Assembly (NCBI RefSeq): GCF_002222615.2
Contig: NZ_CP022412.2
Span: forward strand, 62,001-126,000
Reading direction: 5' to 3'
Length of the DNA: 64,000 nt
From: Bacteroides caccae
GTDB lineage: Bacteria; Bacteroidota; Bacteroidia; Bacteroidales; Bacteroidaceae
Made by a program: the position numbers and the translations under genes. This document shows, piece after piece, positions 21,850 to 40,354 of the stretch (the stretch's first letter is position 1; each line of letters starts with the position of its first letter). The notes under the pieces were generated by a model, which saw only the letters and a list, made by a program, of their open reading frames with translations, was not told the origin of the DNA and searched no databases.

Positions 21850-23838
21850 TTATTGTATATGTTCGATTCGTTTAATCAGTTCATTTCCTAAAGCAGTTTT
21901 GTCCTCGATGTGTTTCAAAACTGCAGTCACGAATGTATTGCTTTCAAAGTCACCACGTACTTGTTCGAAATCCTGTTTCATATCATCGCGAGAACCATCA
22001 ACACCGAATCCGGTCATTGAAGAAAGCGAGAACTCTTTCTTTGCGTCTTCATAAACCATTTTATCCAACCCTACCACAGCCTTCTGCCATGCTTTCACGA
22101 TAGTAACCACGTCCTGAGCAGTTACCGTTTCCGGATTCAAGCCATAAAATTCCTGAATCTTATTATATGCCCAGGTCCATTCATACGTGTAATAGTTTTC
22201 ATGCATTTCCGCAAAACTGGCATTAATAGATTTCAGGCGGTTAATAGAGCCGTTTTCGATACCGTCCAACAATCGGTCTATTTCACTCTTGGGAGCAATC
22301 AGTCCGGAGATGTCCACCCATTCGCCGACACCGATTTCCGTATCCGGTTTCAGGCGCTGGCGGATTTCGTCATTACTTTGGAAATTAATGCCTTCCAACC
22401 GTTTTATGATAGAGTTCCCCAAGAATTTGTTGATGGCAATTTCATAGAAACGAATCCCGTTATTCAAAGAAGAATTCTTGATCTTTGCACTCTGGTAAGA
22501 GTAGATTTCAGAGGTTTCGCCGGATACCCGTTTCAATTCCTTCAAAATAGAACGTCCCTTGAACATCTTTTGAATGGTATATGGACTCAAAAGGTTATAA
22601 TTGATATAATCAAGCCGGTTCGGATCTTTCCGTTTGTCACGTTTCGGCCATTTCTGGGCGTCACGGATTGTCCCGACACTTCTCAGATTCACTCCGGGAA
22701 CCAGATAAGTGGTATTCCGTTGTTCTATCAAATAGGAGAAAGGAAGATTGGAAGTGTCGGCATGGTTTACATGACGTCCCATTACCAAAGAAAAAGCTCC
22801 GACACGTGCCGGCCATAAGATATATGAATCAGAAGTCGTTTTTGCCCCTCTTTCCATGGTCCCCTGATGAATCGGTCCCAACTTATACATATGATTACTC
22901 TGATTAGATCCCGAACCTGCATTCATGAATGAGAACATTCCGGCAATCAACAAAGTCGATTTATGGTGAGTCACCGTGAAAGGGCCTGCGAAGATAGCGC
23001 ACGCTTCTCCATTTTCTCCCTGGCAGTTGCTAAAGAATAACGAGTCGGAAGCAGAATAATTGTGTCCCAGTTTACAAGCTTGTCCGACAAAGCAACGGCT
23101 TAGCATCGTTCCGTCGTCCACGTCTGAACCGGAAGAGATAATAAAGTCGTCGCAGATCACCCCGTGACCGATATGCACAGGTGTCGTCACATTACTATTG
23201 ATACTGCCATTGGTCAGCCGACAGGTTCCACAGATGTGGCAATAATCACCAATCCTGACATTTCTGATTGAACCTGTATTAAGAATCATCACATGATCAC
23301 CAATACTGCCGACAGTAGAAGCGTGCTTATTGGAATAGTAATCCGTAATCGCTTTCATGCGATTGATTAGTTCAGGACGATGACGGTACAACGCCAATAT
23401 GTAGGCCTGATGCGCTGACAACTTGTCGTTAATGAGTACTTCACGCCCTCCTGTTTCATTAAGAACTGTCGCCTCTACCCCATTACCGAAAGTAGTAAGC
23501 CGGTCCACCAGAATGATATCCACATTCTCAATGAAGGTATCATTACCGATCTCATAATTAGCAATGTAGTTCTGAATGTTTTCAATGCAGCAGTTATCCC
23601 CTACTGTCACATTGTGCAAAGTTACATGACGTAATCCGGAATGTTTCCTGATGCCTCCCGGCAATGTAAATTCAGCATCCAATACACCCAGTTTCACTTC
23701 TCCCGAAAAACGGGTGTGATGAACGTACTCACAATTAAACCCCTCTGCAACTGATACATTTCCCCAATCATCAGCCAGACACGACTGGCTCTTTAACTGA
23801 AGCACTTCATCTTCAGTTAGTCTACGATAATCTTTCAT
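21850..23838 (-). CDS. DUF4954 family protein
   Basis: A protein of about 662 residues. The N-terminal two-thirds carries many short repeats of the hexapeptide kind (VGDNCCIENIQNYI, IGNDTFIENV, IRNVRIGDYCHICGTCRL, IGHGVICDDFIISSG), which should fold as a left-handed beta helix as in acyl- or nucleotidyl-sugar enzymes. The C-terminal part is helical. It matches the DUF4954 family of Bacteroidetes, whose biochemical role is not established. I chose the ATG at 23836-23838 (MKDYRRLTEDE); a longer frame begins in an unlikely segment. It ends 17 bases beyond hflX in the same direction. Confidence 0.82.
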   Translation of the reverse strand: MKDYRRLTEDEVLQLKSQSCLADDWGNVSVAEGFNCEYVHHTRFSGEVKLGVLDAEFTLPGGIRKHSGLRHVTLHNVTVGDNCCIENIQNYIANYEIGNDTFIENVDIILVDRLTTFGNGVEATVLNETGGREVLINDKLSAHQAYILALYRHRPELINRMKAITDYYSNKHASTVGSIGDHVMILNTGSIRNVRIGDYCHICGTCRLTNGSINSNVTTPVHIGHGVICDDFIISSGSDVDDGTMLSRCFVGQACKLGHNYSASDSLFFSNCQGENGEACAIFAGPFTVTHHKSTLLIAGMFSFMNAGSGSNQSNHMYKLGPIHQGTMERGAKTTSDSYILWPARVGAFSLVMGRHVNHADTSNLPFSYLIEQRNTTYLVPGVNLRSVGTIRDAQKWPKRDKRKDPNRLDYINYNLLSPYTIQKMFKGRSILKELKRVSGETSEIYSYQSAKIKNSSLNNGIRFYEIAINKFLGNSIIKRLEGINFQSNDEIRQRLKPDTEIGVGEWVDISGLIAPKSEIDRLLDGIENGSINRLKSINASFAEMHENYYTYEWTWAYNKIQEFYGLNPETVTAQDVVTIVKAWQKAVVGLDKMVYEDAKKEFSLSSMTGFGVDGSRDDMKQDFEQVRGDFESNTFVTAVLKHIEDKTALGNELIKRIEHIQ

Positions 23839-23897
23839 ATTAATAAATATAAGTAATGTGCCGCTTCCCCCAATCAGCAAAGCAGCACATTGATTAA

Positions 23898-25154
23898 TTA
23901 TTCCTCCTCTTCGTAGGTCTGATAAAGAAAATCGTTATAGGGGTATTTCTGAACGTGTAGTTCTTTCACTCGTTGATAAACTACGCTTTTCAGTTCGTCC
24001 ATATTGATTCTTTCGCGGGCGGAAATAAAGAGACAGTTGTCTTCCATTTTTGCCATCCACGTCTTCATCAGTTCTTCGAGTGTTAAGTTTTCTTTCGTTC
24101 GGGGGGTAAGGTCATCCGGCGCTTTCTCCACATAGGTGTAAGCGTCTATTTTATTGAATACAAGTATCATGGGTTTGCCACCACCGCCAATTTCGGCAAG
24201 TGTCTTGTTTACCACTTCGATCTGTTCTTCAAATCCGGGGTGAGAAATATCGACTACATGCACAAGCAAATCCGCTTCACGCACCTCGTCGAGCGTCGAC
24301 TTGAACGAATCGACCAAATCAGTCGGCAATTTACGGATAAATCCTACCGTATCGGATAACAAGAACGGCAGGTTATCGATAATCACTTTACGCACAGTGG
24401 TATCCAGAGTAGCAAATAGTTTGTTCTCGGCAAATACTTCGCTCTTCGAGAGAAGGTTCATCATGGTTGATTTTCCGACATTAGTGTAACCTACTAATGC
24501 AACGCGTATCATGCGTCCACGATTTTTGCGCTGGGTAGCTTTCTGCTTGTCAATCTCTGCCAAACGTTCTTTCAGTAACGACATACGGTTCAAGATGATA
24601 CGGCGGTCCATTTCGAGTTGCGTTTCTCCCGGTCCGCGAAGCCCCACGGAACCTTTACCGCCACCGGCTCCGGAACCGCCTCCCTGGCGTTCCAAGTGAG
24701 TCCAGAGTCGTTGCAGGCGTGGCAACATATATTTATACTGGGCAAGTTCCACCTGCGTCTTTGCATTAGCAGTCTGAGCACGCATCGCGAATATATCGAG
24801 GATCAGTGATGTACGGTCAAGTATTTTAATTTTCAGCTCAGCTTCAATATTACGTATCTGTTTCGCAGAAAGTTCATCATCAAAGATAACCATTCCCACT
24901 TCACGTTCTTCTTCCTCCTCGTTCCGGATATATTGTTTAATCTCCTCCAATTTTCCTTTACCGACATAGGTCACCGAGTTAGCTGTCGGCAACTTCTGCG
25001 TAAATCGTTTCACTACTTCCGCCCCAGCCGTCTCGGCAAGGAACGCCAATTCATCCAGATACTCGTTCGTTTTACGCTCATCCTGCGTCTGAGTGATGAG
25101 TCCCACAAGCACTGCTATTTCTACTTTGGCTTCGGATATTACAAATTCTTTCAT
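23898..25154 (-). CDS. hflX: GTPase HflX
   Basis: A ribosome-binding GTPase that helps rescue or split stalled ribosomes. The 418 residues contain the N-terminal HflX domain, a Gly-rich hinge (QGGGSGAGGGKGSVGLRGPGE), then the G domain with GYTNVGKST (G1), DTVGFIRKLP (G3) and NKID (G4). It is the first gene of a probable two-gene unit with the DUF4954 gene, 59 bases apart. A TATCTTTG box on the minus strand (25189-25196) may be its -7 element. Confidence 0.94.
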   Translation of the reverse strand: MKEFVISEAKVEIAVLVGLITQTQDERKTNEYLDELAFLAETAGAEVVKRFTQKLPTANSVTYVGKGKLEEIKQYIRNEEEEEREVGMVIFDDELSAKQIRNIEAELKIKILDRTSLILDIFAMRAQTANAKTQVELAQYKYMLPRLQRLWTHLERQGGGSGAGGGKGSVGLRGPGETQLEMDRRIILNRMSLLKERLAEIDKQKATQRKNRGRMIRVALVGYTNVGKSTMMNLLSKSEVFAENKLFATLDTTVRKVIIDNLPFLLSDTVGFIRKLPTDLVDSFKSTLDEVREADLLVHVVDISHPGFEEQIEVVNKTLAEIGGGGKPMILVFNKIDAYTYVEKAPDDLTPRTKENLTLEELMKTWMAKMEDNCLFISARERINMDELKSVVYQRVKELHVQKYPYNDFLYQTYEEEE

Positions 25155-26228: not shown

Positions 26229-27854
26229 TTAATCAGTTGCACCATCTTTTAAATTCGGATTCTGCCCTGCTACGGGAAGGTTACCTCCGGTATTATTCAC
26301 GATACCGGCATTGTTATTGCTTTCTTTCTGCGGGATACGCAACAGCAACCAAGGGTCATCAGCAGCAATATTGAAACAGAAAGCATCCGGCCAGTTTCCC
26401 TTGTCACTTCCCTGGAAGCGAACAACAGGTTTACCCAAACGCATAATATCTGCCATAGAGAAGCCTTCACCCCATAATTCAATACGACGTTGCAACCAAA
26501 CATCATCAACAGTTACAGAACTTTTGTTCCAACTCGCATCACGCTCATCCATCAATACCTTAAGCTCTTTAGCAGCATTACCTTCGTCATTCTGTTGTGC
26601 CAAAGCTTCCGCTTTGATAAGAATCATCTCCTCGGCACGCATGATACACCAGTCATTGTCATTATTGGAGCTTCCTATACCACTTTTCATTCCGAACTTC
26701 ACATTGGTATATTTGATAAATTTCATTTTTACATCTTCTATTTCCAATGTCGAAATATCATTTCCAATTGCAGAGCCCCAGCTAAGTCCAGATAATGCGT
26801 CTGATTTCAGGTTTTCATCGACCCACCATTGTTTGCGGACATCTGATGTTGAGATTTTCTTATAAAGCAAGGAGTTTATAGTCTTATACATGGCTACTCC
26901 CGCCGTGTAAGCATAACTGGAGAATGACCCTAATTGTCCTGCCGGAGTTGCATACGCATTCTTATTCACCATAGGTACAGAAACGTTAATTCCCCACATC
27001 CAGTTATGATCGGATATATCATAAAAAGCAGGTTTGGACACTTCTTCCTTAGTATAAGGAGTATAGCCTTCCATTGCCTTATCAGCATCATTGTATGCTT
27101 CTTGCCACATTCCCATATACAAGTGAGCACGTGCACGTAACCCATAAGCAACCTGTTGGTCGATACGAGTCTTATCTCCCTGACGGTTATATCCTTCCAA
27201 CAAATCAATAGCACTATTCAAGTCACTTATAATTTGTTCGTAGACCTTACCTACCGTAGCACGAGGATTATTGACAAAATTAGTCGTTTCTTCCGTTATC
27301 AACGGCACACATGGAAGGTCTTTACTGGTAGCATAGCGGAACTGATAATAAGGTGCCAGACATAAATAATCAAACGCACGAACCGCCTTAGCTTGTCCTA
27401 AATAATACTTTTCAGTCTCACTCGCCGTCGCCGGATCAATAGAAAGAATAATATCATTAGCCGCTTTTATCTGATTATAAAAGATAGCATAACGTGCAAA
27501 GGGATTGGCATACGTAGCATAACGGTCACTATATTCACTGCTGACAGAAAACCAGTTATAACCATTATTGGCACAGATCATATCCGGGCCATTCAAATCC
27601 TGAGAAAGACAAACTGTCGGATAACCACCGTCATCATCTCTGGTATCAGAAGGAAATGCAGCACACACTGTCCCCATGCTGCTATACATACCTGCAATTT
27701 TAGCCTCCACACGGGAAGGGATGACAGATGTAGCATCATCTATCTGTTCACCTGTAATTCGGTAGCCCTCACTCTCAATATCATTGATGTCAGAGCAGGA
27801 AGCAAACGATAATGCTCCCAATATAAAAAGTGCAAACTTATTTATTCGTTTCAT
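26229..27854 (-). CDS. SusD/RagB family surface lipoprotein
   Basis: This 541-residue protein has a lipoprotein signal (LGALSFASCSDINDIE), then a SusD fold with TPR-like helices (YYLGQAKAVRAFDYLCLAPYYQ, RIDQQVAYGLRARAHLYMGMWQEAY) and a typical C-terminal block (WCIMRAEEMILIKAEALAQ, RRIELWGEGFSMADIMRLG). It should form the lid over the SusC barrel encoded 17 bases upstream in the operon. The cargo could be a glycan, peptide or other nutrient; no enzyme gene nearby narrows it down. Its expression depends on the promoter in the invertible segment upstream of susC. Confidence 0.93.
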   Translation of the reverse strand: MKRINKFALFILGALSFASCSDINDIESEGYRITGEQIDDATSVIPSRVEAKIAGMYSSMGTVCAAFPSDTRDDDGGYPTVCLSQDLNGPDMICANNGYNWFSVSSEYSDRYATYANPFARYAIFYNQIKAANDIILSIDPATASETEKYYLGQAKAVRAFDYLCLAPYYQFRYATSKDLPCVPLITEETTNFVNNPRATVGKVYEQIISDLNSAIDLLEGYNRQGDKTRIDQQVAYGLRARAHLYMGMWQEAYNDADKAMEGYTPYTKEEVSKPAFYDISDHNWMWGINVSVPMVNKNAYATPAGQLGSFSSYAYTAGVAMYKTINSLLYKKISTSDVRKQWWVDENLKSDALSGLSWGSAIGNDISTLEIEDVKMKFIKYTNVKFGMKSGIGSSNNDNDWCIMRAEEMILIKAEALAQQNDEGNAAKELKVLMDERDASWNKSSVTVDDVWLQRRIELWGEGFSMADIMRLGKPVVRFQGSDKGNWPDAFCFNIAADDPWLLLRIPQKESNNNAGIVNNTGGNLPVAGQNPNLKDGATD

Positions 27855-27871: not shown

Positions 27872-30800
27872 TTAAAACGTAAGAGAAATTCCTCCTGTGA
27901 TAGTACGCATCGCAGAATATGAACTGGTAGTATTGGCACCACTTTCAGCAGTCGAGCTTCCCAGACCTAATCCCAAACGCGGGTCAAGACCTTTGCGTGC
28001 CGATAAAAGAGCTACATTGTCAGCCGTCAAATAAACCCTACAATGAGATAGTCCCAGTTTGCTGGTCAAACGTTTCGGTATTGTATATCCCAATGTAATA
28101 TTGTTAAGGCTGAGATAATCCGAGCTAACAAGGAAACGGCTGGAATCCTGTTGGTAGCTTGCATCACTTGCACTTAAACGAGGTACGTCAGTATAACGAT
28201 TGTCCGGTGTCCACGCTTTACGGATGTCCGTAGACCAGTTTGTACCTTGCATACCACTATTTCCATTGTGCATATATGCCTGATAAGCCCCGTCGTAATA
28301 TTTGCCGCCCAACTGATAAGAAAGCTGCAATGAGAAATCAAAACCGTAGAATCGCACTGAAGTCCCCAAACCACCATATACTTTTGGCAACGTAGTACCC
28401 TGATCCGCTTGTTGGGCTTCTTCATAGTTAGAAGTCTTTGTATAATCACCATTATCCGGATCCACATAATACAATGCCTTTCCCGTATCCGGATCTACTC
28501 CGGCGTATGTTTTCAAATAAGACTGGTAAAGAGATCCTCCTACCCGGTAAATATAATAAGAACCTTTTTGACCGCCATTTTTCTCCAAATCCGGATCCAA
28601 TGCAGTAATTTTATTGGTATAGTGCGTCAGGTTGAAGTTCATAGCCCATTCATAATCCTTTCCGCGAAGGATAATGCCATTCAAATCCAATTCAACACCC
28701 TTATTCATAATATCGCCCACGTTGGTCGGCTCATAGCCTGTACTGATACCGGATGATACAGGGATCGGTTTGTTATACAACAAATCGACAGTTTTTCTGC
28801 TGAAATATTCAATAGTACCATTCAAACGGTTGTTGAATAATTCAAAGTCAGTACCGATATTGAAAGCATAAGACGTTTCCCAAGTCAGATCTTTCGTTCC
28901 TTTATATTTGAGAATCAGTGAATATTGCCCGTTAGCGTAGTTCACATCATACTGGTCTTGATAAGCATACCAGTTGTCACGCTGTACACCGTTTACAGTA
29001 ATCAGCAGTCTGTCATTACCCTGCACACCCCAACTAGCTTTCAATTTCAACATATTCACCCATTTCACGTTTTCCATGAACTTTTCGTGGTTAATCAGCC
29101 AAGCTCCACCTACACTTCCGAAGTTACCCCAACGGTGATCTTTATGGAAACGTGAAGAAGCGTCACGACGATAAGAAGCACTGAGGAAGTATTTTCCGTC
29201 ATAGTTATATTGCAAACGGCTCAAAATACCTTCGGTCATATAATTGTCCGTATATGATTTCGCATTCTTCTTGTCTATACCTCCGGCATTATTCAACTCA
29301 CCGATATATGGGTTGTACAGATTGGTGTTTTCTCCGTAGAGTACTTGATTCTTATAACGGTATTGTTCATAACCGACCAATAAATCTGCATTATGCTTAT
29401 CGGCAAACGTACGTGCATAGGTTGCCAGATACTGGTTATTCACTCCCATCATTCTGGTATGCTGTACAAAAACAGAACCATCATCTGCCGATGCAGATCC
29501 GAAAGCACTGCTCAACTGGTTCAAACGGCTGTTCTGTACATTCGCAGAAATATTGGCAGTCAGCGTCAAACCTTCAATCGGAGTGATGTTAGCATACCAT
29601 TTTCCACTTAACAAATCGGTATATTCATGCTGACGGTTCAGTTCGATGTCTCTAGCCGCATTTCCAGTTACCGAAGGACGAGAAAAGCCGCTGTTGTTAC
29701 CCGAGTCATAGATTTTATACCCTGTGTTGGGATTGATAGCAATACTTCCGTCAGCATTACGTACATATAAAGGATAGATCGGTGCAATTGTATTGGATAC
29801 ATAAAATAAGTTAGCAGAACTTCCCCAAGAATCACCATCCTGATAGTCAGGAGCTTGTGAATCCGAATAAGTGTATGCAATGTTGGTTCCTACTTTTAAC
29901 CATTCTTTAGCTTGATAATCAACTTTTGCACGACCGGTATAACGTTTGTAAGCAGAATTTTGAATAATACCGGAATCATTCAGGTAACCGACACTTGCAT
30001 AGTAATTCAATTTGTCAGAACGGCCTGAGATATTAACATTGTATTCCTGACGGAAATTTGAACTGAATACTTCGTCATACCAATCGTCAGGAGTATAATA
30101 ATATTTACCATCAGAATACCCTAACTTAGCATTCGGATTAAGCTTGAAATTGTTACCAATCAATTTTTCACCATCAGGCACGGTATAAACAAGGTATCCC
30201 AATCCACCATTTTTTGCGTCCAACAAAGTTTTATCTGCATAATTATAAGCTTCGGCCTTAGAGGAACCGGTATAGATCTTGGAATTGTACAAAGTCTTGT
30301 ACTGCGTTTCGTAATATTCTGCCGTTCCAATTACATCATATTGAGGAACCATGCGCGAATTGGACCCCCATTTGGCATCAAATGTGACCTTTGCTTTTTC
30401 TGTTTTAGCAGATTTAGTTGTAATCAAGATAACTCCATTCGCTCCGCGTGCTCCATAAATAGAGTTAGCAGCCGCATCCTTCAATACAGAAAGGGATTCT
30501 ATATCTTGAGGGTTAATGGAAGACATATCACCATCATAAGGTACTCCGTCTACTACATACAACGGAGCATTGCTTGAACTCATAGAACCGATACCACGGA
30601 TACGAACTGTCGCAGACGCTCCCGGAGCTCCGTTAGCATTTACTGTCTGAATACCGGCCACCTGTCCGGAGAGGGCATTGGTGATATTCGACACAATTCT
30701 CTCTTCCAATTTATCAGCTTTAATAGTTGAAGCAGAACCGGTAAATGCTGATTTCTTAGCAGTACCATAAGCAACAACTATAATCTCATCTAATTGTTTA

Positions 30801-31096
30801 GCATCCGGCTTCAATGTGATTTTTAAATGGGGTTTAATTGCCACTTCTTGCGCCTGCATTCCAATATACGAAATCTGCAAAGTCTTTGCAGAACTTGGTA
30901 CATTTGCCAAATTAAAATTACCATCCACATCTGTGATTGTACCTTGAGTAGTACCTTTTACTAACACAGAGGCGCCAACAACTGGCTGCCCGTCTTCTTC
31001 AGAAATCACAACACCTGTGATCTTCTGAGTTTGGGCAGTTACCAGACTTATGCCCACAAAAAGGCATGCCAATAACAGCATCAATTTTCTTTTCAT
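27872..31096 (-). CDS. SusC/RagA TonB-dependent outer-membrane transporter (currently expressed copy)
   Basis: A complete 1074-residue SusC protein. It has a signal peptide (MKRKLMLLLACLFVGISLVTA), a carboxypeptidase-regulatory-like domain (ITGVVISEEDGQPVVGASV, about residues 25-100), a plug with IRGIGSM and YVVDGVP, and a 22-strand barrel ending in GGISLTF. The 46-bp repeat at 30854-30899 lies within codons for PSSAKTLQISYIGMQ at about residues 66-81. Everything upstream of that point (signal peptide, most of the first domain and the promoter) is on the invertible segment. After inversion this gene would lose its 5' end. It is the first gene of a three-gene operon. Confidence 0.95.
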   Translation of the reverse strand: MKRKLMLLLACLFVGISLVTAQTQKITGVVISEEDGQPVVGASVLVKGTTQGTITDVDGNFNLANVPSSAKTLQISYIGMQAQEVAIKPHLKITLKPDAKQLDEIIVVAYGTAKKSAFTGSASTIKADKLEERIVSNITNALSGQVAGIQTVNANGAPGASATVRIRGIGSMSSSNAPLYVVDGVPYDGDMSSINPQDIESLSVLKDAAANSIYGARGANGVILITTKSAKTEKAKVTFDAKWGSNSRMVPQYDVIGTAEYYETQYKTLYNSKIYTGSSKAEAYNYADKTLLDAKNGGLGYLVYTVPDGEKLIGNNFKLNPNAKLGYSDGKYYYTPDDWYDEVFSSNFRQEYNVNISGRSDKLNYYASVGYLNDSGIIQNSAYKRYTGRAKVDYQAKEWLKVGTNIAYTYSDSQAPDYQDGDSWGSSANLFYVSNTIAPIYPLYVRNADGSIAINPNTGYKIYDSGNNSGFSRPSVTGNAARDIELNRQHEYTDLLSGKWYANITPIEGLTLTANISANVQNSRLNQLSSAFGSASADDGSVFVQHTRMMGVNNQYLATYARTFADKHNADLLVGYEQYRYKNQVLYGENTNLYNPYIGELNNAGGIDKKNAKSYTDNYMTEGILSRLQYNYDGKYFLSASYRRDASSRFHKDHRWGNFGSVGGAWLINHEKFMENVKWVNMLKLKASWGVQGNDRLLITVNGVQRDNWYAYQDQYDVNYANGQYSLILKYKGTKDLTWETSYAFNIGTDFELFNNRLNGTIEYFSRKTVDLLYNKPIPVSSGISTGYEPTNVGDIMNKGVELDLNGIILRGKDYEWAMNFNLTHYTNKITALDPDLEKNGGQKGSYYIYRVGGSLYQSYLKTYAGVDPDTGKALYYVDPDNGDYTKTSNYEEAQQADQGTTLPKVYGGLGTSVRFYGFDFSLQLSYQLGGKYYDGAYQAYMHNGNSGMQGTNWSTDIRKAWTPDNRYTDVPRLSASDASYQQDSSRFLVSSDYLSLNNITLGYTIPKRLTSKLGLSHCRVYLTADNVALLSARKGLDPRLGLGLGSSTAESGANTTSSYSAMRTITGGISLTF
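30854..30899 (-). repeat. Left 46-bp inverted repeat (recombination site)
   Basis: Its complement is identical over 46 bases to 33346-33391. It holds a 19-bp dyad, TCTGCAAAG-A-CTTTGCAGA, the expected form of a tyrosine recombinase core site. Similarity continues beyond the repeat on the barrel-coding side but stops sharply on the promoter side. Confidence 0.9.
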
Positions 31097-31545
31097 AAAT
31101 TCTCTCTTAAAGTTTAACTTTACATTAATTGTTTCTTTACTCTAACAATTTGCAAATATATTAATAAATATGAAACTAACAATTCATTTAATAAAAAAAG
31201 GTTGCAAATATGGCATTCTGTTATTCAATTGCTAATATTTATGCTAATAAGCATAGATATTGGCTGCAAAAGTTTTGATTTCAAAACTCAGAAGCGACAC
31301 TTTGCAAAAGCAAAATGCTCATTTTAATATTTCACATACTCATTTTTAGTCACAAAACACCTCTATTAACAAACCTTTTTGCTTATTTTGAAAAAACATC
31401 AATAAAAAAGTGGCATTTAATTTAAAGTTTTGTGAATACTTCATTTTTGAGGATTTATTTTTTTAGAGATATTAATGCATATTCAACCCTGGCGTAGCAC
31501 AGAACTACGTCTAATTTGTTCTATTATTAATTAAAAAACTGAAGT
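31097..31545. promoter_or_regulatory. Divergent control region of susC and the recombinase
   Basis: These 449 AT-rich bases separate the starts of the minus-strand susC and the plus-strand recombinase and lie wholly inside the invertible segment. They contain the susC promoter, an 8-bp inverted repeat with a 2-base loop (AGTTTTGA/TCAAAACT near 31275) and a small hairpin CGTAG...CTACG just before the recombinase. No other gene is seen. Confidence 0.5.
31153..31182 (-). promoter_or_regulatory. Promoter of the left susC operon, inside the invertible segment
   Basis: On the minus strand TTG (31180-31182) is followed after 19 bases by TATATTTG (31153-31160), an excellent Bacteroides promoter 57 bases before the susC ATG. 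This promoter would drive the right-hand susC after inversion. Confidence 0.75.
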
Positions 31546-32739
31546 ATGGAAAAGATTAGTTACAACCTTGTGTTTAACAGAAAAAAAAGATTGAATAAAA
31601 AGGGAATGGCATTAGTACAGGTAGAAGCTTATTTAAATAGAAGAAAAATATATTTCTCTACTAAGATATACCTTAAACCTGAACAGTGGGATACGAAACG
31701 TAGAATGGTAAAGGGACATCCTAATGCAGACGTATTGAATCGTATGTTATACGAGCACATTGCGGCTATTGAACAAATAGAACTTGGATTATGGCAACAG
31801 GGGAAGAGTATTTCTTTGGAGTTATTAAAGGATTCCATCGATAAACCTGTAAGCAACGGTAGATCGTTCTTAACTTTCTTCAGAGAAGAAGTCGCTAATT
31901 CTTCTTTGAAAGAAAGCACCAGACAGAATCACCTGTCTACTCTGGAGCTACTCCAAGAATTTAAGAAGGAAGTACAGTTCACGGACCTGACATTTGAATT
32001 TGTGTCTTCATTTGACAATTATCTGCAATCCAAGGGATATCACCTGAATACGATTGCCAAACATATGAAACATTTGAAACGTTATGTTAACGTCGCTATA
32101 AATAAGGATTATATGGACGTGCAGAAATATGCATTCAGAAAATATAAAATAAAAAGTGTAGAAGGCAGACATAGTCATCTATCACCGGAAGAATTGCATA
32201 AATTGGAGGATTTACAGCTAGGAGGAAAATATGCTAAATTGCAAAAGACAAAAGATTCCTTTTTATTTTGCTGTTACGCCGGATTACGATACTCCGACTT
32301 TACCAATTTGACATCTGCAAATATTGTTGAGTTTCAACAGGAAACGTGGCTTATTTACAAATCAGTCAAAACTGGTATTGAGGTACGTCTACCATTATAT
32401 CTATTGTTTGAAGGGAAAGGTATTCATATATTGCAGCGCTATAAGGATGATCTTAATCGTTTTTTCAAATTGAAAGATAATTCGAATATTAATAAGGAAC
32501 TGAATATATTAGGGAAACTGGCAGAAATTGATAAACGTATATCATTTCATACCGCCCGCCATACAAATGCTACCTTATTAATATATAGTGGTGCTAATAT
32601 CACTACTGTACAAAAGTTGTTAGGACATAAAAGTGTAAAAACGACTCAGGTATATGCGAATATTATGGATATAACTCTTGTACGGGATCTTGAAAAAGCA
32701 ATCTACTCAAAAGCCGGTGGCAAACATAAAGGAAACTAA
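31546..32739 (+). CDS. Tyrosine recombinase (probable DNA invertase of the susC switch)
   Basis: A 397-residue phage-integrase family recombinase. It has an N-terminal arm-type DNA-binding region (about 1-100), a SAM-like core-binding domain (106-195) and a catalytic domain with every key residue: Arg248 (YAGLRYSDF), His335 and Arg338 (SFHTARHT), His361 (LLGHKSVKTT) and Tyr370. The family in Bacteroides includes the invertases that flip polysaccharide promoters and susC genes. It lies inside the segment it is predicted to invert, divergent from susC. A weak TAnnTTTG-like sequence precedes it. A mobile-element integrase is the alternative, but no other transfer gene is nearby and the dyad repeats flank it. 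Confidence 0.9.
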   Translation: MEKISYNLVFNRKKRLNKKGMALVQVEAYLNRRKIYFSTKIYLKPEQWDTKRRMVKGHPNADVLNRMLYEHIAAIEQIELGLWQQGKSISLELLKDSIDKPVSNGRSFLTFFREEVANSSLKESTRQNHLSTLELLQEFKKEVQFTDLTFEFVSSFDNYLQSKGYHLNTIAKHMKHLKRYVNVAINKDYMDVQKYAFRKYKIKSVEGRHSHLSPEELHKLEDLQLGGKYAKLQKTKDSFLFCCYAGLRYSDFTNLTSANIVEFQQETWLIYKSVKTGIEVRLPLYLLFEGKGIHILQRYKDDLNRFFKLKDNSNINKELNILGKLAEIDKRISFHTARHTNATLLIYSGANITTVQKLLGHKSVKTTQVYANIMDITLVRDLEKAIYSKAGGKHKGN

Positions 32740-32800
32740 TCCTAAATCTTCCAGGATTAAGCTCTCCGGATACTATTAGTTAGTACTCGTTATGCATAGC

Positions 32801-32898
32801 TTTATTCGTCTAACAACTGTTAAACTTTCGTCTGACAGTTGTTTCTCTTTCGTCTAACAGTTGTCAGACGAAAAAACAACATCTGTCAGACGAATAAA
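32801..32898. repeat. Nested repeat array of TTCGTCTRACA units
   Basis: Five copies of a TTCGTCTRACA-like unit occur: three on the plus strand (about 32804, 32827 and 32849) and two inverted (about 32862 and 32884). The whole forms a long imperfect palindrome, since TTTATTCGTCT at the left end matches AGACGAATAAA at the right. It lies 60 bases after the recombinase stop. It may end that transcript or bind the recombinase. The rest of 32740-33345 shows no gene. Confidence 0.6.
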
Positions 32899-33345
32899 AT
32901 TATGCAATAACAAAGATTGATTTATTAAGTACGAGAAGTAGATAGTTACTAACTTAAAAATAATCCACAACCGTACGGAAAGAAGTAAATCATTTTAATT
33001 TATAAAATAAGATACCACATAGAATAAATAAAACCTATTTTTATTAACATCTGAGGAATATTCTCAATTAAGTAATTCTAGTATTTGCATTCAATGGAAA
33101 TTGTTGTGGAACAAAATAACAAAGTCAAAGTGGGTTCTTTTCAAAGTCTAAACGATTATTTACTAAATACTTATCTCTTTTTCAAGTAGATATTTAGTAG
33201 CACAATTTCTGTTTTTATATCATTGCTACTATAAATAATAAGCTATAAATTAAAGATATAGGTTGTTTTTTATTAAGAAGAATGACAAGATACTTATGTT
33301 TTGCAAATAGTTATATTCTATTGATAATAAGAGCAATATCGAACG

Positions 33346-33391
33346 ACCAAGTTCTGCAAAGACTTTGCAGATTTCGTATATTGGAATGCAG
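33346..33391 (+). repeat. Right 46-bp inverted repeat (recombination site)
   Basis: This is the partner of 30854-30899, with the same dyad core. It encodes PSSAKTLQISYIGMQ in the frame of the downstream susC body. The sequence just upstream shows no promoter, signal peptide or ATG in that frame; a TAG stop closes the frame at about 33308. Confidence 0.9.
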
Positions 33392-36337
33392 ACTCAGGAA
33401 GTCATTATTAAACCGACCTTAAAAGTCATACTGAAAGCTGATGCACAAAAATTAGATGAGATAGTTGTGACAGCAATGGGTATTTCACGTGAGAAAAAAG
33501 CATTAGGATATGCTGTACAAGATGTAAAATCAGATGTACTGACACGGGCGGCCAATACGGATTTAGCAGGTGCATTACAAGGAAAAGTATCAGGTATTGA
33601 CATCACTCCTTCATCGGGTATGCCGGGAGCCTCTTCTAAAATAACCATTCGCGGTTCCCGTTCTTTCACAGGAGATAATACCCCTTTATATGTAATTGAC
33701 GGTATGCCAATTGCTTCTACTGCCGATGTTAGTACATCTCTTACTGACGGAGCATATGGCACAGACTATGCTAATCGTGCAGTCGATATTGATCCTAACG
33801 ACATCGAAAGTATTAATATACTGAAAGGACAGGCTGCTTCTGCATTATATGGAATGAGGGCCTCGAACGGTGTTATTGTTATCACTACTAAAAGTGGTAA
33901 AGGAGCAAATAAAGGGAAACCAAACATCACTTTTAGCACCAACCTTTCATTCGATAAGATCTCAACCCTGCCAGAGTTACAACAAGAATACGCACAAGGC
34001 TCTAAAGGAGTATTTGATCCCTTATCACCTTTTGCATGGGGTCCTAGAATCTCAGAATTACCTAATGATCCTAACTATGGTGGAAATACTAATAATAGTT
34101 ACACCAATAAGTATGGTAAACAACCAGACAGGTATTACGTTCCTCAGCTTGCAGCAGCCGGTATGGACCCTTGGGCTACTCCAAAAGCATATAACAACAT
34201 GAAAGACTTCTTCGAAACTGGTGTATCGTGGAGCAACAATGTGAATGTAGCCCAAAAATTTGATAAAGGGAACTACTCTTTCTCTATGGGTAATACCACT
34301 ACCAATGGTATTGTTCCCTCAACAGGTATGGATAGATACAATGTAAAATTATCAGCAGAAGCACAACTGCACCCCAACTGGACTACCGGATTTAATGGGA
34401 ATTTTGTGACTTCAAAGATCACAAAACAATCTACTGCCAACACAAGTGTAGTTGCTACTGTTTACAATGCTCCTGTTAGTTATAATATGGCAGGCATTCC
34501 TTCCCATATAGAAGGTGACCTATATACTCAAAATACCTATCGTAGTGATTGGATTGACGATGCTTACTGGGCTGTCGATAATAATCAATTTTCAGAACGT
34601 TCACAACGCTTCTTTGGAAATGCCTTTGTGAAATACTCCACTAAATTCGGGACCGACAACCATAAACTGGATATTAAGTATCAAATAGGTGACGATGCTT
34701 ATACAACTAACTATTCTGAAATTTATGGATATGGAAGCACTTGGGCCGCTACAGGTGAAGATTCGGAATATCACTATACTGTTAATGAGCTAAACTCATT
34801 ACTGACTGCCTCTTACACATGGAATATTAATGATGAATGGGCATTAGACGCTTTAATCGGTAATGAATTTGTTGATAAAAAGACAAAATACGAATATGCG
34901 TATAGCATGAATTTCAACTTTCCGGGCTGGAATCACTTAAATAATGCTTCTGTATTTTCCAATGAAAGTCAATACAATAAAAAACGAACCGTAGGTAATT
35001 TTGCAAATGTATCAGTTGCATGGAAAAATATGCTCTACTTAAGTGGAAGTATACGTAATGACATCGTTTCAAGTATGCCTCGTAACAATCGTTCTTTCAC
35101 TTATCCATCAGTCTCATTAGGATTCATTTTTACAGAATTGGCACCGTTAAAGAACAATATATTAACTTTCGGTAAAATACGTGCCTCCTACGCAGAAGTA
35201 GGTATGGCAGGAGATTATACTCAAAGCTATTACTACACTCCCGCTTATGGTGGCGGTTTCTATATGGGGAATCCTATTGTATACCCAATAGCCGGAGCAA
35301 TGGCTTATGTACCATACTATAAAGTATATGATCCCAACTTAAAGCCACAGAATACAAAATCATACGAGATAGGAGCTGATCTTACTTTCTTCAACGGATT
35401 GGTCACATTGAATTATACTTACTCACGTCAGAATGTAAAGGATCAGATATTTGAAGTTCCTTTAGCCGGTTCAACCGGAGCCTCAAGTATGATAATGAAC
35501 GGAGGTAAGATACATACTAATACTCATGAAGTGACCTTGGGCATTTCTCCGGTAGATACAAAGAACTTTAAACTTGATTTTGCCTTCAACTTCTCCAAAA
35601 TCGACAATTATGTTGATGAACTGGCTCCAGGAGTAGAAAGCATTATGTTAGGAGGTTTTGTTACTCCACAAGTACGTGCCGGAATTGGTGACAAATTCCC
35701 TGTAATCTATGGAAAAAGCTATATGCGCAATAATGAAGGTAAGATAGTTGTAGATCAAAACGGGCTCCCCATGCAAGGAGAAGATGCGGTCATCGGAACT
35801 GTATCTCCCGATTTCCGCCTGGGGTTCAATACTAATATTGAATTATACAAGTTCCGCATTTCAGCTGTATTTGATTGGAAACAAGGCGGTCAAATGTATT
35901 CCGGTACCGCTGGCGAGATGAACTATTACGGTGTGAGTAAATTATCTGGAGATATGCGTAAAACTGATTTTATTGTAGAAAACTCAGTTAAAGAAACGGG
36001 TAAAGATACCAATGGAAATCCGATTTATGCTCCTAATGACATAAAGGTATCTGATGCTCAATCCTATTTCACAAGAAGAAGGTCTATTGACGAGTCTTAT
36101 ATTTATGACAACTCTTATATTAAGTTACGTGAATTATCCATAAGCTATCCGGTCCTCTCCAAAAAATGGCTAAACGTAAACGTAAATGTCTTTGCACGTA
36201 ACATATTAGTTTGGTCAGAATTTAAAGGATTCGACCCAGAGGCTTCACAAGGCAATGACAATATGGGAGGCGCATTCGAACGTTTCTCTTTACCCGGAAC
36301 GGCCAGTTATGGCTTCGGATTTAATGTAAAATTCTAA
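33365..36337 (+). CDS. SusC/RagA transporter body lacking its 5' end (silent copy)
   Basis: The frame encodes 990 residues of an intact SusC: the end of the regulatory-like domain, plug (KITIRGSRSF, PLYVIDGMPI, ALYGMRASNGVIVITTKSGK) and a full barrel ending in YGFGFNVKF. Missing are the signal peptide and about the first 70 residues, so in this orientation it cannot be exported. The only possible start is a TTG inside the repeat. No stop or frameshift is seen in the body, which argues that the gene is kept functional and only waits to be fused to the promoter-bearing 5' end at 30900-31096. It is quite different from the left SusC outside the repeat, so the two likely import different cargo. 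Confidence 0.88.
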   Translation: MQISYIGMQTQEVIIKPTLKVILKADAQKLDEIVVTAMGISREKKALGYAVQDVKSDVLTRAANTDLAGALQGKVSGIDITPSSGMPGASSKITIRGSRSFTGDNTPLYVIDGMPIASTADVSTSLTDGAYGTDYANRAVDIDPNDIESINILKGQAASALYGMRASNGVIVITTKSGKGANKGKPNITFSTNLSFDKISTLPELQQEYAQGSKGVFDPLSPFAWGPRISELPNDPNYGGNTNNSYTNKYGKQPDRYYVPQLAAAGMDPWATPKAYNNMKDFFETGVSWSNNVNVAQKFDKGNYSFSMGNTTTNGIVPSTGMDRYNVKLSAEAQLHPNWTTGFNGNFVTSKITKQSTANTSVVATVYNAPVSYNMAGIPSHIEGDLYTQNTYRSDWIDDAYWAVDNNQFSERSQRFFGNAFVKYSTKFGTDNHKLDIKYQIGDDAYTTNYSEIYGYGSTWAATGEDSEYHYTVNELNSLLTASYTWNINDEWALDALIGNEFVDKKTKYEYAYSMNFNFPGWNHLNNASVFSNESQYNKKRTVGNFANVSVAWKNMLYLSGSIRNDIVSSMPRNNRSFTYPSVSLGFIFTELAPLKNNILTFGKIRASYAEVGMAGDYTQSYYYTPAYGGGFYMGNPIVYPIAGAMAYVPYYKVYDPNLKPQNTKSYEIGADLTFFNGLVTLNYTYSRQNVKDQIFEVPLAGSTGASSMIMNGGKIHTNTHEVTLGISPVDTKNFKLDFAFNFSKIDNYVDELAPGVESIMLGGFVTPQVRAGIGDKFPVIYGKSYMRNNEGKIVVDQNGLPMQGEDAVIGTVSPDFRLGFNTNIELYKFRISAVFDWKQGGQMYSGTAGEMNYYGVSKLSGDMRKTDFIVENSVKETGKDTNGNPIYAPNDIKVSDAQSYFTRRRSIDESYIYDNSYIKLRELSISYPVLSKKWLNVNVNVFARNILVWSEFKGFDPEASQGNDNMGGAFERFSLPGTASYGFGFNVKF

Positions 36338-36353: not shown

Positions 36354-37913
36354 ATGAAAACATATACTATAATTAAAGGATTTTTTGCCGTTGGCGTTTT
36401 ATCAGTTGTCCTTTCCGGATGTTCGGAAGATGCAATGGATAGAATAAATAAAGATCATGGACACACACAAAGCGTGGCTGGAAGATTTATCCTAACTGAT
36501 GTAATAACCTCTACCGCGTTTTCAAATGCAGGAGGAGACTTAAATACTTATCTATCTTCATATATTGAATATGAAGTAGGTGTTGACAATCAATTGTATT
36601 ATGCAGAAACCAGAGAAAGTGAACCGACATCATCTTCCACTTTCAATAATACATGGAACAACCTGTACTCAACATTAAAATCCGCCCGTATCATAATTAA
36701 CCAATGTAGTGATGGAGGGATAGATTACGGCAATTATACAACCAAAGGCATGGCCGAAGTATTAGCAGCCTACAACTGTGCATTAATAGCAGATATGTTT
36801 GGCGATGCTCCGTGCAGCCAAGCTGCCTTAGTTGACGAAAATGGTTCCCCCGTTTATCTAAATCCCAAAATGGATAAACAAGAGGATATTTATAAACAAG
36901 CAATGCAATATCTGGATGACGCTATTGCAGACTTACAACAAGAGGATTTAATAGATCCATCCAGTCAAGATTTACTTTACCAAGGAGATGCAGAAAAATG
37001 GCTCAAATTTGCATATGCCCTGAAAGCACGCTATACGATGCACCTACTTCAAAGGTCAACTAATAAAGACGCTGATATGGAGAAAGTGTTGGAGTATGTA
37101 AGCAAGTCTTTTAAAAACACAGAAGAACAGGCAGCATTCAGTGTATATGATGTCAATAACATAAATCCACTTTATGGTTTCTTCAAAGCACGTGCAGCAT
37201 TGGGAGCAAGCGAAAGCATGAGAAGCAAACTAGCTGAATATAATGACCCACGTCTGTCCAGGGCATTCATTACAAAACTAGACAAAGAGAAAGAAGGAAA
37301 AGCACAAGCTCCGGGGACTCCTGATACTGATGTATATGCACCTAGCGGAACACCGGAACAAGGAACCAGCAAATATGGTACATCTCTGTTTATGTATTCA
37401 GCAACAGCCCCTACTCTTTTAATGAGCTTCCATGAGTTAAAGTTCTTAGAAGCAGAAGCTTTATGCCGATTGGGACGTGATGCAAAAAGCGCCTTGAAAG
37501 AGGCTGTGGTAGCCGGATTGCTAAATGCAGAGAACAGTTTTAGTATTTCCAGAAAAGAATTGGGAAACACATTACTAAACCCAGCTAGCGCTATCACGGA
37601 AGAAGAAGCGAATAGCTATTTTGACAACACTGTAGAAGCTACATATACGAATGAGCCTCTGAAAACTACCATGATACAAAAATATTTTGCACTATGGGGA
37701 GCTTCCGGAGAAGCTACAGAATCTTATAATGACCTCCGTAGAATGACAGCACCTACTGAAAGTTTCATTCAATTACAGAATACCAAGCCTTTCCCCTTAC
37801 GTTGTCCATATGGCAATAGTGACACAACGACAAACGCAGAAGTGAAAGCTGCTTATGGAAATGGACAGTATGTTTATAACGAAAAAGTCTGGTGGGCAGG
37901 CGGTAACAGATAA
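36354..37913 (+). CDS. SusD/RagB-like surface lipoprotein, partner of the silent SusC
   Basis: This 519-residue protein has a lipoprotein signal (VLSVVLSGCSEDAMD) and SusD-type helices (GMAEVLAAYNCALIADMFGDAPCSQA, EKWLKFAYALKARYTMHLLQ, HELKFLEAEALCRLG). It starts 16 bases after the susC body and must share its transcript, so it should be off in the present orientation and on after inversion. It belongs to a different SusD branch from the left SusD. The ligand is unknown. A terminator follows directly. Confidence 0.9.
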   Translation: MKTYTIIKGFFAVGVLSVVLSGCSEDAMDRINKDHGHTQSVAGRFILTDVITSTAFSNAGGDLNTYLSSYIEYEVGVDNQLYYAETRESEPTSSSTFNNTWNNLYSTLKSARIIINQCSDGGIDYGNYTTKGMAEVLAAYNCALIADMFGDAPCSQAALVDENGSPVYLNPKMDKQEDIYKQAMQYLDDAIADLQQEDLIDPSSQDLLYQGDAEKWLKFAYALKARYTMHLLQRSTNKDADMEKVLEYVSKSFKNTEEQAAFSVYDVNNINPLYGFFKARAALGASESMRSKLAEYNDPRLSRAFITKLDKEKEGKAQAPGTPDTDVYAPSGTPEQGTSKYGTSLFMYSATAPTLLMSFHELKFLEAEALCRLGRDAKSALKEAVVAGLLNAENSFSISRKELGNTLLNPASAITEEEANSYFDNTVEATYTNEPLKTTMIQKYFALWGASGEATESYNDLRRMTAPTESFIQLQNTKPFPLRCPYGNSDTTTNAEVKAAYGNGQYVYNEKVWWAGGNR

Positions 37914-37983: not shown

Positions 37984-38643
37984 TTATTTTAAGACACCAA
38001 CCATCCCTTCTCTCACTATATCCACCAATATCGGTTTCAACCCACTGACGAAACATTCTACTGCGATCACCATTAAGATCAATCCCATAAGACGCATCAT
38101 TACATTATTCCCCGTCTCTCCCAAGACACTCACCAATTTCGTGGAAGCACGGAGAATAAAGAAAGTCAGCAGATAAATCAGTCCGATAGTTCCTATCAAA
38201 ATCCCTTTCATTTCGAAGTTGTGAGCATCCTGCATCAAAACAATAGCATTCGCTATCGCTCCGGGACCACACAACATTGGTATCCCGAGAGGAGTAATTG
38301 AAATATCATCAGCATAAGTTTTTATTTCTTCATCCTTCAACTTCATCGGCGTGTAGCGGGCTTGAAGCATATCAAAACCGATTTTGAAGATAATCACCCC
38401 ACCGGCAATACGAAATCCATCAGTAGAGATCCCGAAAAACTTAAAAAGAAACTGACCGGCAAAAACAAAAACCATTAATGTGACAAACGACACAATGGTG
38501 GCACGTTGCACGATAGACTGACGTTCCTTATCCGTCATTCCATGAGTCATTGTAAGAAAGACGGGCATTGTCCCCAAAGGATTGGTCAACGTAAAGAACG
38601 AAGTGAAACAAAGCAAGGCAAACGGGAGAAGTGTACTATCCAT
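37984..38643 (-). CDS. MarC family membrane protein
   Basis: This 219-residue protein has six hydrophobic segments and the family landmarks FFTLTNPLGTMPVFLTMTHGM at the N terminus and SITPLGIPMLCGPGAIANAIVLM in the middle. MarC proteins were once linked to multiple-antibiotic resistance, a link later withdrawn; their transport role is undefined. It is a single gene convergent with the switchable susD. Confidence 0.88.
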   Translation of the reverse strand: MDSTLLPFALLCFTSFFTLTNPLGTMPVFLTMTHGMTDKERQSIVQRATIVSFVTLMVFVFAGQFLFKFFGISTDGFRIAGGVIIFKIGFDMLQARYTPMKLKDEEIKTYADDISITPLGIPMLCGPGAIANAIVLMQDAHNFEMKGILIGTIGLIYLLTFFILRASTKLVSVLGETGNNVMMRLMGLILMVIAVECFVSGLKPILVDIVREGMVGVLK

Positions 38644-38705
38644 GGCAGTATCGCATTTTTATGCATTTATTAAACACGACAAAAATACGACTTAATCCAT
38701 AAAAT

Positions 38706-39401
38706 CTATAATAAATCTATCAAATCTTTCAAAGAATAAATGTGATAAGTAGGCTGAAAAGGAAATGAGGTACGACCGGTTACATTGTAAAAAGCCTGGT
38801 GCATCCCTATTCCATGTGCCCCGGTTATATCCGCTTCCCAACTGTCACCAATCATCAATGATTCGCGCAGTTCGGACTGAGTGGCGGAAAGAGCAAAGTT
38901 GAATATTTCAGGCCACGGCTTCAGTACCCCGAGATCTTCGGAAAGGATAACCTTTTTAAAGTAGATGTCTACGCCTGCTGAACGCATTTTACGTGATTGT
39001 AATTCCCGAAAACCGTTGGACAGTATATAAAGATTATATTTCGGAACCAGATACTCCAACACCTCTTTCGCATAAGGCATCAAACCGCTTTTGGTAGGAA
39101 TAATTGCGAAGAAATCTTCCGAGAACTTTTCAGCCAAGGTCTCATCCTCCACTCCTACCGCCTGCAAAGGATAAGAAAAACGTTGCCGGTTCAGTTCATC
39201 CTTCGTTATCTTCCCCTCACCATATTCAATCCAGAGTTCGGTATTCCGTTGCTGATAAATCGTATAATAATGATCGAACGAATCAAAATAACGTTCGAAT
39301 GAATATTTCCGATAGACTTCTTCAAAAGTATCGCGAGCATTACGGGAAAAAGCCCAGATAGTGTCGTCAAGATCAAAAAAAAGATTTCTATATTTCATCA
39401 A
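38706..39401 (-). CDS. HAD-family nucleotidase, YjjG type
   Basis: A 231-residue phosphatase of the haloacid dehalogenase superfamily. Motif I is FFDLDDTIW with the nucleophile and acid aspartates at 10 and 12. ILSNGF is motif II, a Lys in LKPWPEIF is motif III, and GDSWEADITGA is motif IV. The alpha-helical cap sits between residues 17 and 95. Its best fit is YjjG, which hydrolyses noncanonical pyrimidine nucleotides. It starts close to, but is not clearly in an operon with, the coiled-coil lipoprotein gene. Confidence 0.82.
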   Translation of the reverse strand: MMKYRNLFFDLDDTIWAFSRNARDTFEEVYRKYSFERYFDSFDHYYTIYQQRNTELWIEYGEGKITKDELNRQRFSYPLQAVGVEDETLAEKFSEDFFAIIPTKSGLMPYAKEVLEYLVPKYNLYILSNGFRELQSRKMRSAGVDIYFKKVILSEDLGVLKPWPEIFNFALSATQSELRESLMIGDSWEADITGAHGIGMHQAFYNVTGRTSFPFQPTYHIYSLKDLIDLL

Positions 39402-39432
39402 CAGTTACGGGGGTATATATAAGAAACAAAAA

Positions 39433-39475
39433 GCCAATGTGCTAATTTCTTGCATTCAGGAATCAGCACATTGGC
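39433..39475 (-). terminator. Terminator of the coiled-coil lipoprotein gene
   Basis: GCCAATGTGCT (39433-39443) pairs perfectly with AGCACATTGGC (39465-39475). On the minus strand the hairpin is followed by a T-rich stretch (complement of AAACAAAAA). Confidence 0.75.
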
Positions 39476-39496
39476 AATTCAAAAGAGGTGTCTACC

Positions 39497-40354
39497 TTAT
39501 TTTACCTGAATAACCAAGTATCTGGATATACTCCAGAATTCAGTAGGATTCGTAATCTTCAAAGTCAACTGACCTTTGTCATCTTTCACCAATTCGTAAG
39601 AACCGGCAGGATGAGTAGTCAACAACTCAGCACGTTTAGAGTACAACTTGATTTCTTTTGTTGTACGGATATCAATCTGAGTGAAATAATCCTTGTTGAA
39701 ATCAGCGCTTTTCAGCACATCACCACTTTGAAGAATTTTCTGGGCTTTCAGTTCGGATTTTGTTCCGAATACAAACCATGCAGCATTCAGGCTCTTATCC
39801 TGTTCGGCAACTGTCTTAGCTTTCGCTTCGTTTTCGGCAACCAGCGTTTCTTTGGCAGCAGATAGATCGCTTACAGCAGCATCCAGTTCCTGAATACGGA
39901 TATTCTTGGAAGCCAGTTCGGTTTGAAGTTCTTCGATACGTTGTTGTTTAGCATTCAATTCAGCAGTCAGAGCGGCAACCGCCTTTTTCATCTGAGCAGA
40001 ATTATAACTGCTATTTTTCAACTGAGCCTGCAATTTAGCAATCTGAGCTTTGTTTTCCTCCATCTGCTTGGAGATGAATTCAATATCAGAAGCGATTTGT
40101 TGTTTGGCACTAGCAGAATTTTCGGTAATAGTACCGCGCTGCAAGTCTACACGACTTTCGGCAGCATTGATCTTACGGAAACCTTCCTGAACTTCATTGA
40201 AAGTTCCCATCATATCATCCAGTTCAGCATTGCGCTGGTTCAGTTCCATCAACAGAGAGTCATTTTCAGCTTTCAGGTCCTTACTTCCACCTTTAAAGCC
40301 ATCACACGAAGCCAACATGGCTGCGCATACAAATAAAACTGCTAACTTTTTCAT
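39497..40354 (-). CDS. Coiled-coil lipoprotein of unknown function
   Basis: A 285-residue protein with a lipoprotein signal (VCAAMLASCDGFKGG), then a long heptad-rich region at about residues 28-190 (NDSLLMELNQRNAELDDMM, ITKLQAQL-like and ELQTELASKNIRIQELD stretches) that should form a coiled coil. A compact C-terminal domain of about 90 residues follows, with strands (TKEIKLYSKRAELLTTHP, SYELVKDDKGQLTLKI). Similar proteins are common in Bacteroidales, but I know no function. It follows rsmI by 34 bases on the same strand. Confidence 0.75.
   Translation of the reverse strand: MKKLAVLFVCAAMLASCDGFKGGSKDLKAENDSLLMELNQRNAELDDMMGTFNEVQEGFRKINAAESRVDLQRGTITENSASAKQQIASDIEFISKQMEENKAQIAKLQAQLKNSSYNSAQMKKAVAALTAELNAKQQRIEELQTELASKNIRIQELDAAVSDLSAAKETLVAENEAKAKTVAEQDKSLNAAWFVFGTKSELKAQKILQSGDVLKSADFNKDYFTQIDIRTTKEIKLYSKRAELLTTHPAGSYELVKDDKGQLTLKITNPTEFWSISRYLVIQVK

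Follow-up and report, generated by a model that had tools for sequence, protein, structure and literature searches.

The window analysed here is a stretch of 64,000 nucleotides, positions 62001-126000 of the single-contig, 4.57-Mb genome of Bacteroides caccae, and coordinates are those of the window unless the genome is named. Near its middle, two susC/susD operons on opposite strands are separated by a gene for a tyrosine recombinase, here called Tsr. It is highly probable that this locus is a two-position DNA inversion switch and a member of a family of SusC/SusD switches, of the Tsr0667 type, that is found in many Bacteroides. In the proposed mechanism, Tsr would recombine two in-frame sites and flip a segment of about 2.5 kb, which carries the promoter, the 5' leader, the signal peptide, and the first 67 codons of susC, as well as tsr itself. 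Each flip would graft the single head onto one of the two susC bodies and deprive the other of promoter and export signal, and one SusC/SusD importer should replace the other. Tsr is the putative enzyme of the inversion, and expression is expected to follow the DNA state. Below, a susC joined to the head is called headed, and a susC that begins at the site is called headless.

Organisation of the proposed switch locus

Two inverted repeats, at 30854-30899 on the minus strand and at 33346-33391 on the plus strand, are identical at 46 of 46 positions; together they span genome positions 92854-95391. The left copy, which is the putative recombination site within the headed susC, has a 15-mer core at 30881-30895, and the right copy, where the headless susC begins, has its 15-mer core at 33350-33364. 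Both copies translate in one shared codon phase (SSAKTLQISYIGMQ) inside two different susC frames, as the initial annotation had described. The homology between the two sides ends abruptly in the 5' direction, whereas towards the coding (3') side it decays gradually within some 70 nt, with 117 nt at 83% overall. In a search of all 4.57 Mb, a 21-base core, AGTTCTGCAAAGACTTTGCAG, had two exact copies, both at the switch locus; when three mismatches were allowed, three more matches appeared, two of which are the same sites on the opposite strand and one of which lies elsewhere in the genome.

Headed and headless sites were also compared over 32 loci. In six blocks of 12-15 nt on the 3' side of the core, the identity between headed and headless sites was higher within a locus than between loci, a result that was reached in 0, 0, 0, 2, 2, and 3 of 2000 permutations. 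Over the 12 nt that precede the core, the within-locus identity was near random (0.23). The excess of block identity within loci is more than susC paralogy by itself can account for. Chance or mere susC paralogy was rejected as the origin of the repeat on account of this block identity, the complete match of the two copies, and a core whose exact copies in the genome are both at the locus.

The left susC body (27872-30895, minus strand), assigned by Pfam and NCBIfam, is headed in this assembly and is followed by its susD (26229-27854, minus strand; Pfam). Translation starts 67 codons upstream of the site. The mobile head (30896-31096, minus strand) thus comprises the start codon, a signal peptide judged by eye, and the first 67 codons (MKRKLMLLLACLFVGISLVTAQ...NVP), and it ends inside the CarboxypepD_reg-like (NTE) domain. 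It is preceded by a conserved 5' leader (31097-31160, minus strand) with a promoter-like TATATTTG at 31153-31160, 64 nt ahead of the start, which fits the Bacteroides -7 box, TANNTTTG. In an alignment of 13 loci, about 65 nt before the start codon form a near-invariant block, and much of the remaining intergenic region is variable.

The right susC body (33350-36337, plus strand; Pfam and NCBIfam) is headless and presumably silent in this assembly. A stop is present 12 codons upstream of the site, there is no start upstream of the site, and 995 codons are then open. After a gap of 16 nt, the gene is followed by a susD of the SusD-like_2 type (36354-37913, plus strand; Pfam). The arrangement proposed earlier, with a promoter and signal peptide at the left susC only and an intact right body followed by susD, was thus found again, the promoter being a promoter-like motif. 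Among solved structures, the right susC is closest to BT_2264 (PDB code: 5fq6) and the left susC is closest to RagA. When the NTE domain was deleted from another SusC, growth on the substrate of that importer was undetectable at 24 h (PMC7782687). Since the junction of head and body falls inside this domain, a headless SusC would probably be useless even if it were made.

The recombinase between the repeats, also noted in the initial annotation, is encoded at 31546-32739 on the plus strand. Its frame of 397 aa is intact and contains arm-binding, SAM-like, and catalytic domains (Arm-DNA-bind_5, SAM-like_5, and Phage_integrase; Pfam). In an alignment of 48 Tsr sequences, each of the candidate catalytic residues R248, K275, H335, R338, H361, and Y370 is shared by 46 or more. 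There are 30 matches to Tsr in the genome, with Tsr itself counted; the best other match has 31% identity over residues 36-385 of 397, and the highest identity of any other match is 40% over about 63 residues.

The two cassettes and tsr occupy a slot between two groups of genes. Flank A contains a gene for a GTP-binding GTPase (23898-25154, minus strand) and then a DUF4954 gene (21850-23880). Flank B (37984-41063, minus strand) contains genes for a NAAT transporter, a YjjG-like nucleotidase, a Cbp1-family lipoprotein, and a 16S rRNA methyltransferase.

Evidence for both orientations and for selection

Inversion is predicted to join the 67-aa head to the 995-aa right body in a product of 1062 aa. 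Among the best 120 of the 3402 proteins that match the right susC, 85 are 1062 aa long, 21 are 990 aa long, and 14 have other lengths. The same head is fused to the right body in P0002 and P0007, which differ from the predicted product at one and two positions, respectively, and have a head identical at 67 of 67 residues, as well as in P0005 (1057 aa), with one difference from the prediction and a head identical at 62 of 62 residues. The headless copies of 990 aa, P0001, P0003, P0004, and P0006, have a rounded identity of 100% to the right susC.

Relatives of the locus point in the same direction. Bacteroides sp. GM023 (L011) has an orthologue of the right cassette, with 93% amino acid identity, that is headed, and the head faces flank B, which is the reverse of this stretch. 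Bacteroides acidifaciens DSM 15896 (L013) and a metagenome-assembled genome (L014) are 98.9% identical over 8044 nt; the cassette on the A side is headed in L013 and headless in L014, and the breakpoints coincide with the repeats. The comparison of close relatives that the initial annotation had suggested found the reverse arrangement in GM023 and opposite states of one cassette in L013 and L014, and the predicted 1062-aa product is present among public proteins. The opposite orientation does occur in nature; as short-read assembly can in principle mis-join at repeats, the evidence for both states is strong but not final.

The silent right susC is maintained by selection. Between this stretch, where it is headless, and GM023, where it is headed, the ratio of non-synonymous to synonymous substitution rates (dN/dS) is 0.022 for susC, 0.065 for susD, and 0.04 for the head, although the ratios of susC and susD are rough, their dS of 1.4-1.6 being close to saturation. 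No stops were seen in the right susC in this comparison; their accumulation in relatives had been named beforehand as a sign against an active switch. The earlier proposal of an invertible either/or segment, with the recombinase inside, that moves a promoter and a signal peptide between two susC/susD operons is thus supported by relatives in the reverse state, by the predicted product, and by the low dN/dS.

Relation to known systems

Nakayama-Imaohji and colleagues reportedly described in 2009 the SusC/SusD shufflons of Bacteroides fragilis that depend on Tsr0667, with the site motif AGTYYYN4GDACT. Both sites of the B. caccae switch match this motif on the reverse complement. Tsr0667 is reported to run shufflons at three SusC/SusD clusters and at nine other regions in B. 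fragilis (PMC4747536), and the SusC/SusD shufflons are also described elsewhere (PMC11852207); this is the system behind the similarity to susC shuffling in B. fragilis that the initial annotation had remarked on. The B. caccae locus resembles it in the recombinase domains, the inverted sites where alternative susC genes begin, the site motif, and the two orientations, and the further invertible regions may have a counterpart in the motif pairs described below. Unlike the Tsr0667 shufflons, it consists of two cassettes and one Tsr; it has two sites, whereas a multi-cassette shufflon has three or more alternative segments. It is therefore binary, unlike a shufflon of many genes.

In Bacteroides thetaiotaomicron, BT2264/BT2263 and BT2268/BT2269 are opposed and are accompanied by BT2267, which is homologous to the invertase of B. 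fragilis; one SusC/D pair fell while the other rose, and an inversion was proposed (PMC6080902, published in 2018). The chain of BT_2264 in its PDB entry (5fq6) begins with MQTQEV, that is, an importer of solved structure was deposited from the internal Met of the site, and the first 202 residues of BT_2264 are identical to the headless cassette beside Tsr in Bacteroides faecis (L016). Judged by this chain start and this identity, the BT2264-BT2269 locus is very probably of the same kind as the B. caccae switch. The BT2264/63-BT2267-BT2268/69 (MAFF) locus shares with it two opposed SusC/D pairs and an invertase homologue. However, the cassette sequences differ, and the text covered of PMC6080902 does not speak of a head grafted in frame. 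Switches of this kind explain some database susC genes that seemingly lack a signal peptide, as their silent halves.

In region EE of B. fragilis, an intergenic shufflon has inverted repeats that overlap the starts of ragA/susC homologues (PMC5729914). As is proposed here, inversion brings alternative susC/susD pairs into expression; unlike the B. caccae switch, the shufflon lies downstream of an invertible promoter. The position of its recombinase and head grafting are not given in the text covered of that paper. Other reports concern the orientation of such regions: in inflammatory bowel disease, certain regions differ in orientation, and some of these are in or near susC/susD (PMC10939037), and a nutrient-receptor shufflon of B. 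thetaiotaomicron shifted on exposure to phage (PMC12548429).

With regard to a possible orthology of Tsr to BF0667 of strain YCH46, genome G016 (L082) has a 75%-identical Tsr among four susC genes, with four motif sites at the Tsr locus. In the pilV shufflon of R64, the tyrosine recombinase Rci joins a constant 5' part to alternative 3' gene parts. The likeness to this system is the constant 5' part on alternative 3' parts; the proteins and the host differ.

Recurrence in the genus Bacteroides

A scan of genome contigs gave 31 loci, and a Tsr match at E<=1e-100 is present in 95 of 158 genomes of the genus. A survey of 48 loci was composed of this stretch, 30 of the 31 named loci (L041, a distant recombinase, was dropped), and 17 of 20 further stretches (L083, L087, and L093 were dropped since they are on the same contigs as L021, L028, and L038). 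The 20 further stretches were higher-scoring places among the Tsr matches of the genus; the survey therefore represents the better Tsr matches and not all of them, its loci were found through Tsr, and for many of the 95 genomes the analysis covered Tsr only.

A headed site is present beside the Tsr relative in 37 of the 48 loci, and its position relative to the Tsr start is -664 to -669 bp in 36 of these and -949 bp in the remaining one. The headed site is directed to flank A in 13 loci and to flank B in 11, and its direction is not assignable in 13. At least one flank gene of the slot was recognised in 35 of the 48 stretches and both in 15. There are 61 headless sites, 38 of which are followed by at least 850 open codons, while 21 reach the edge of the stretch and two are short. 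The motif AGTYYYN4GDACT is matched by 84 of 94 sites over the surveyed loci, and the site core is conserved across loci while the upstream flank is variable. Many loci hold three or more susC genes, and more than one Tsr match is present in some genomes; in L022/L023 and L024/L025 (B. fragilis Q1F2 and Bacteroides salyersiae), two Tsr copies and several susC cassettes are present in one chromosome. Under the pattern used, 11 of the 48 loci have no headed site; in L036, L037, L091, and L094, the site pattern is unmatched or the contig is short.

The design had initially been considered specific to this locus. This was rejected, since a headed site with a Tsr relative recurs in 37 of the 48 loci, in both orientations, and since an inversion had already been proposed for B. 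thetaiotaomicron (PMC6080902). This points to a conserved genomic slot where the outer-membrane importers behind a single head differ from one Bacteroides species to another, which bears on the nutrient niche and, by inference, on recognition by phages and the immune system.

Further motif pairs and a possible network

Further inverted pairs of this motif were counted by eye as matches on opposite strands, 100-1500 bp apart, with at most one mismatch between the arms; the limit was set after the B. caccae genome had been seen. This genome has seven further pairs, 261-884 bp apart, while the reversed control motif has no inverted pairs among its 84 genome matches. Single matches are not enriched (63 vs 84 for the reversed pattern) and only the inverted pairs stand out. 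Each of the seven pairs borders an operon with a SusC-like TonB receptor, and a Plug domain is present in all seven (Pfam). The receptor gene is the first in five of the seven operons and is preceded by a FecR gene in L099 and by a TIG/NHL gene in L102. The pairs of L096, L097, L099, L100, L101, and L102 are 261-382 bp apart, each adjoining its receptor operon. L098 (genome positions 963534-964432) resembles a one-gene head switch, in which a promoter and a signal-peptide head are reversed relative to a headless susC across 884 bp, in the same phase; no recombinase-sized frame is present in the 899-bp segment.

Another of the seven pairs, at genome positions 1936310-1936332, coincides to the base with an inverton reported from B. 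caccae ATCC 43185, which shifts its orientation within passages in culture (PMC11892184). By these coordinates, the window would belong to strain ATCC 43185. The inverton is a member of group 131, which is the largest group in this 2025 survey; the inverted-repeat family of the group is enriched near TonB receptors and SusD, and the group is not linked to any invertase group. The switch locus itself is not mentioned in the text covered of PMC11892184. The literature search found no description of in-frame head grafting or of a group-131 invertase in the texts covered.

Pairs up to 1.5 kb were also counted in genomes picked by hand, most of them for completeness; those without Tsr are smaller, and three of these four are in many contigs. 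Further pairs are present in six of six genomes with an intact Tsr and switch (G000, 7; G013, at least 12, as its count covers 4.97 of 6.8 Mb; G026, 2; G016, 9; G020, 4; G154, 1) and in none of seven genomes with an orphan Tsr (G003, G156), a broken Tsr (G143), or no match (G049, G019, G027, G060), a comparison that rests on the motif as reported for B. fragilis, counts by eye, and a post hoc limit, with no correction for kinship or genome size. Other pairs fall outside the rule, namely one at 5.3 kb and one with two mismatches in G013, as well as one at 1.8 kb and longer ones in G016. The pattern fits a trans-acting Tsr, without proving it.

A wider scheme can be put forward tentatively, as one that is slightly more doubtful than credible. 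The Tsr of the switch may be the missing invertase of group 131, the largest inverton group in Bacteroidota. One enzyme in a conserved slot would then control many SusC/SusD importers as a network, either by flipping promoters or by grafting a signal-peptide head onto headless genes, and the slot would also trade cassettes between species behind a near-constant head. Tsr is in any case a testable candidate enzyme for the group.

Observations against the switch and alternative explanations

Several observations weigh against the switch or its wider extension. The two orientations come from sequence data of different sources and not from one culture, and the reverse state of the B. caccae locus is known as proteins of public sets and not as a contig. 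No near-identical headless left susC is present among the 120 matches listed out of 5421, where clustering may hide one. Between L013 and L014, the other cassette has also been replaced, and thus this pair is not a clean inversion. In L017-L020 and L081, the slot still contains Tsr as an open frame but no susC was recognised, and L032 and L034 have Tsr with no recognised susC nearby; therefore, Tsr can persist without this switch. The absence of pairs from all seven genomes depends on the 1.5-kb limit, since G156, with its orphan Tsr, has pairs at 1.73 and 1.75 kb, whose neighbouring genes have no match to susC, and an identical inverted pair 5.3 kb apart around a susC/susD operon (L105). Targets may thus remain for an orphan Tsr, and some motif pairs are unrelated to susC. 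In L103 and L104 of G156, the pairs enclose paired short genes that face each other, and phage-like genes, judged by eye, adjoin in L104.

It is unlikely that the locus is a frozen remnant that inverted in the past and no longer does so at a useful frequency. Its orientations are indeed known from separate sequences and not from reads, and in G143 a decayed Tsr has two sites remaining around it; however, headed and headless versions are near-identical, and for another site pair of the genome, which shares the motif, flipping within passages in culture has been reported (PMC11892184). Alternatively, a different recombinase might invert the segment, or the 46-bp repeats might undergo homologous recombination of the RecA type. 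The genome does offer 30 matches, Tsr included, and the role of Tsr is itself read from sequence. This route is nevertheless quite improbable, since the best other match has 31% identity, with up to 40% over some 63 residues only; a Tsr relative is linked to the headed site in 37 of 48 loci, which were found through Tsr; conservation is seen in the site core but not in the flank upstream of it; and motif pairs up to 1.5 kb are absent from the five genomes where Tsr is broken or missing.

That the right susC is a 5'-truncated relic, with the repeat being conserved coding sequence common to paralogues, is hardly credible. The two susC genes share conserved N-terminal coding sequence, and the right one has neither a start upstream of the site nor a signal, as a relic would. 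This explanation is already contradicted by the dN/dS of 0.022 without stops, by the long open frames after headless sites (38 of 61 with at least 850 codons, 21 reaching the stretch edge, and two short), and by the headed 1062-aa version with one or two differences. A pseudogene was likewise rejected in view of the same dN/dS and the near-identical headed and headless versions in protein sets. The two-position switch driven by Tsr remains the preferred explanation.

Hairpin and other features

A long hairpin is present between tsr and the silent susC (32780-32925, plus strand; -52.2 kcal/mol, z -8.9). It is imperfect, about 50 bp long, and built of repeated TTCGTCTGACAGTTGTT units, with five matches in the stretch vs 0.16 expected. 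It is possible that it is a terminator or insulator, which would end Tsr transcription ahead of the silent operon. Its sequence is unshared, which speaks against a conserved terminator: TTCGTC/GACGAA words number 0-1 within the initial 400 nt of the gap in relatives, vs five here. A terminator conserved as a fold may nevertheless exist, as the same gap in many relatives also folds better than shuffled sequences (20 simple mononucleotide shuffles each). A further inverted repeat of 26 nt, imperfect and with a 1-nt gap, is present at 41784-41836.

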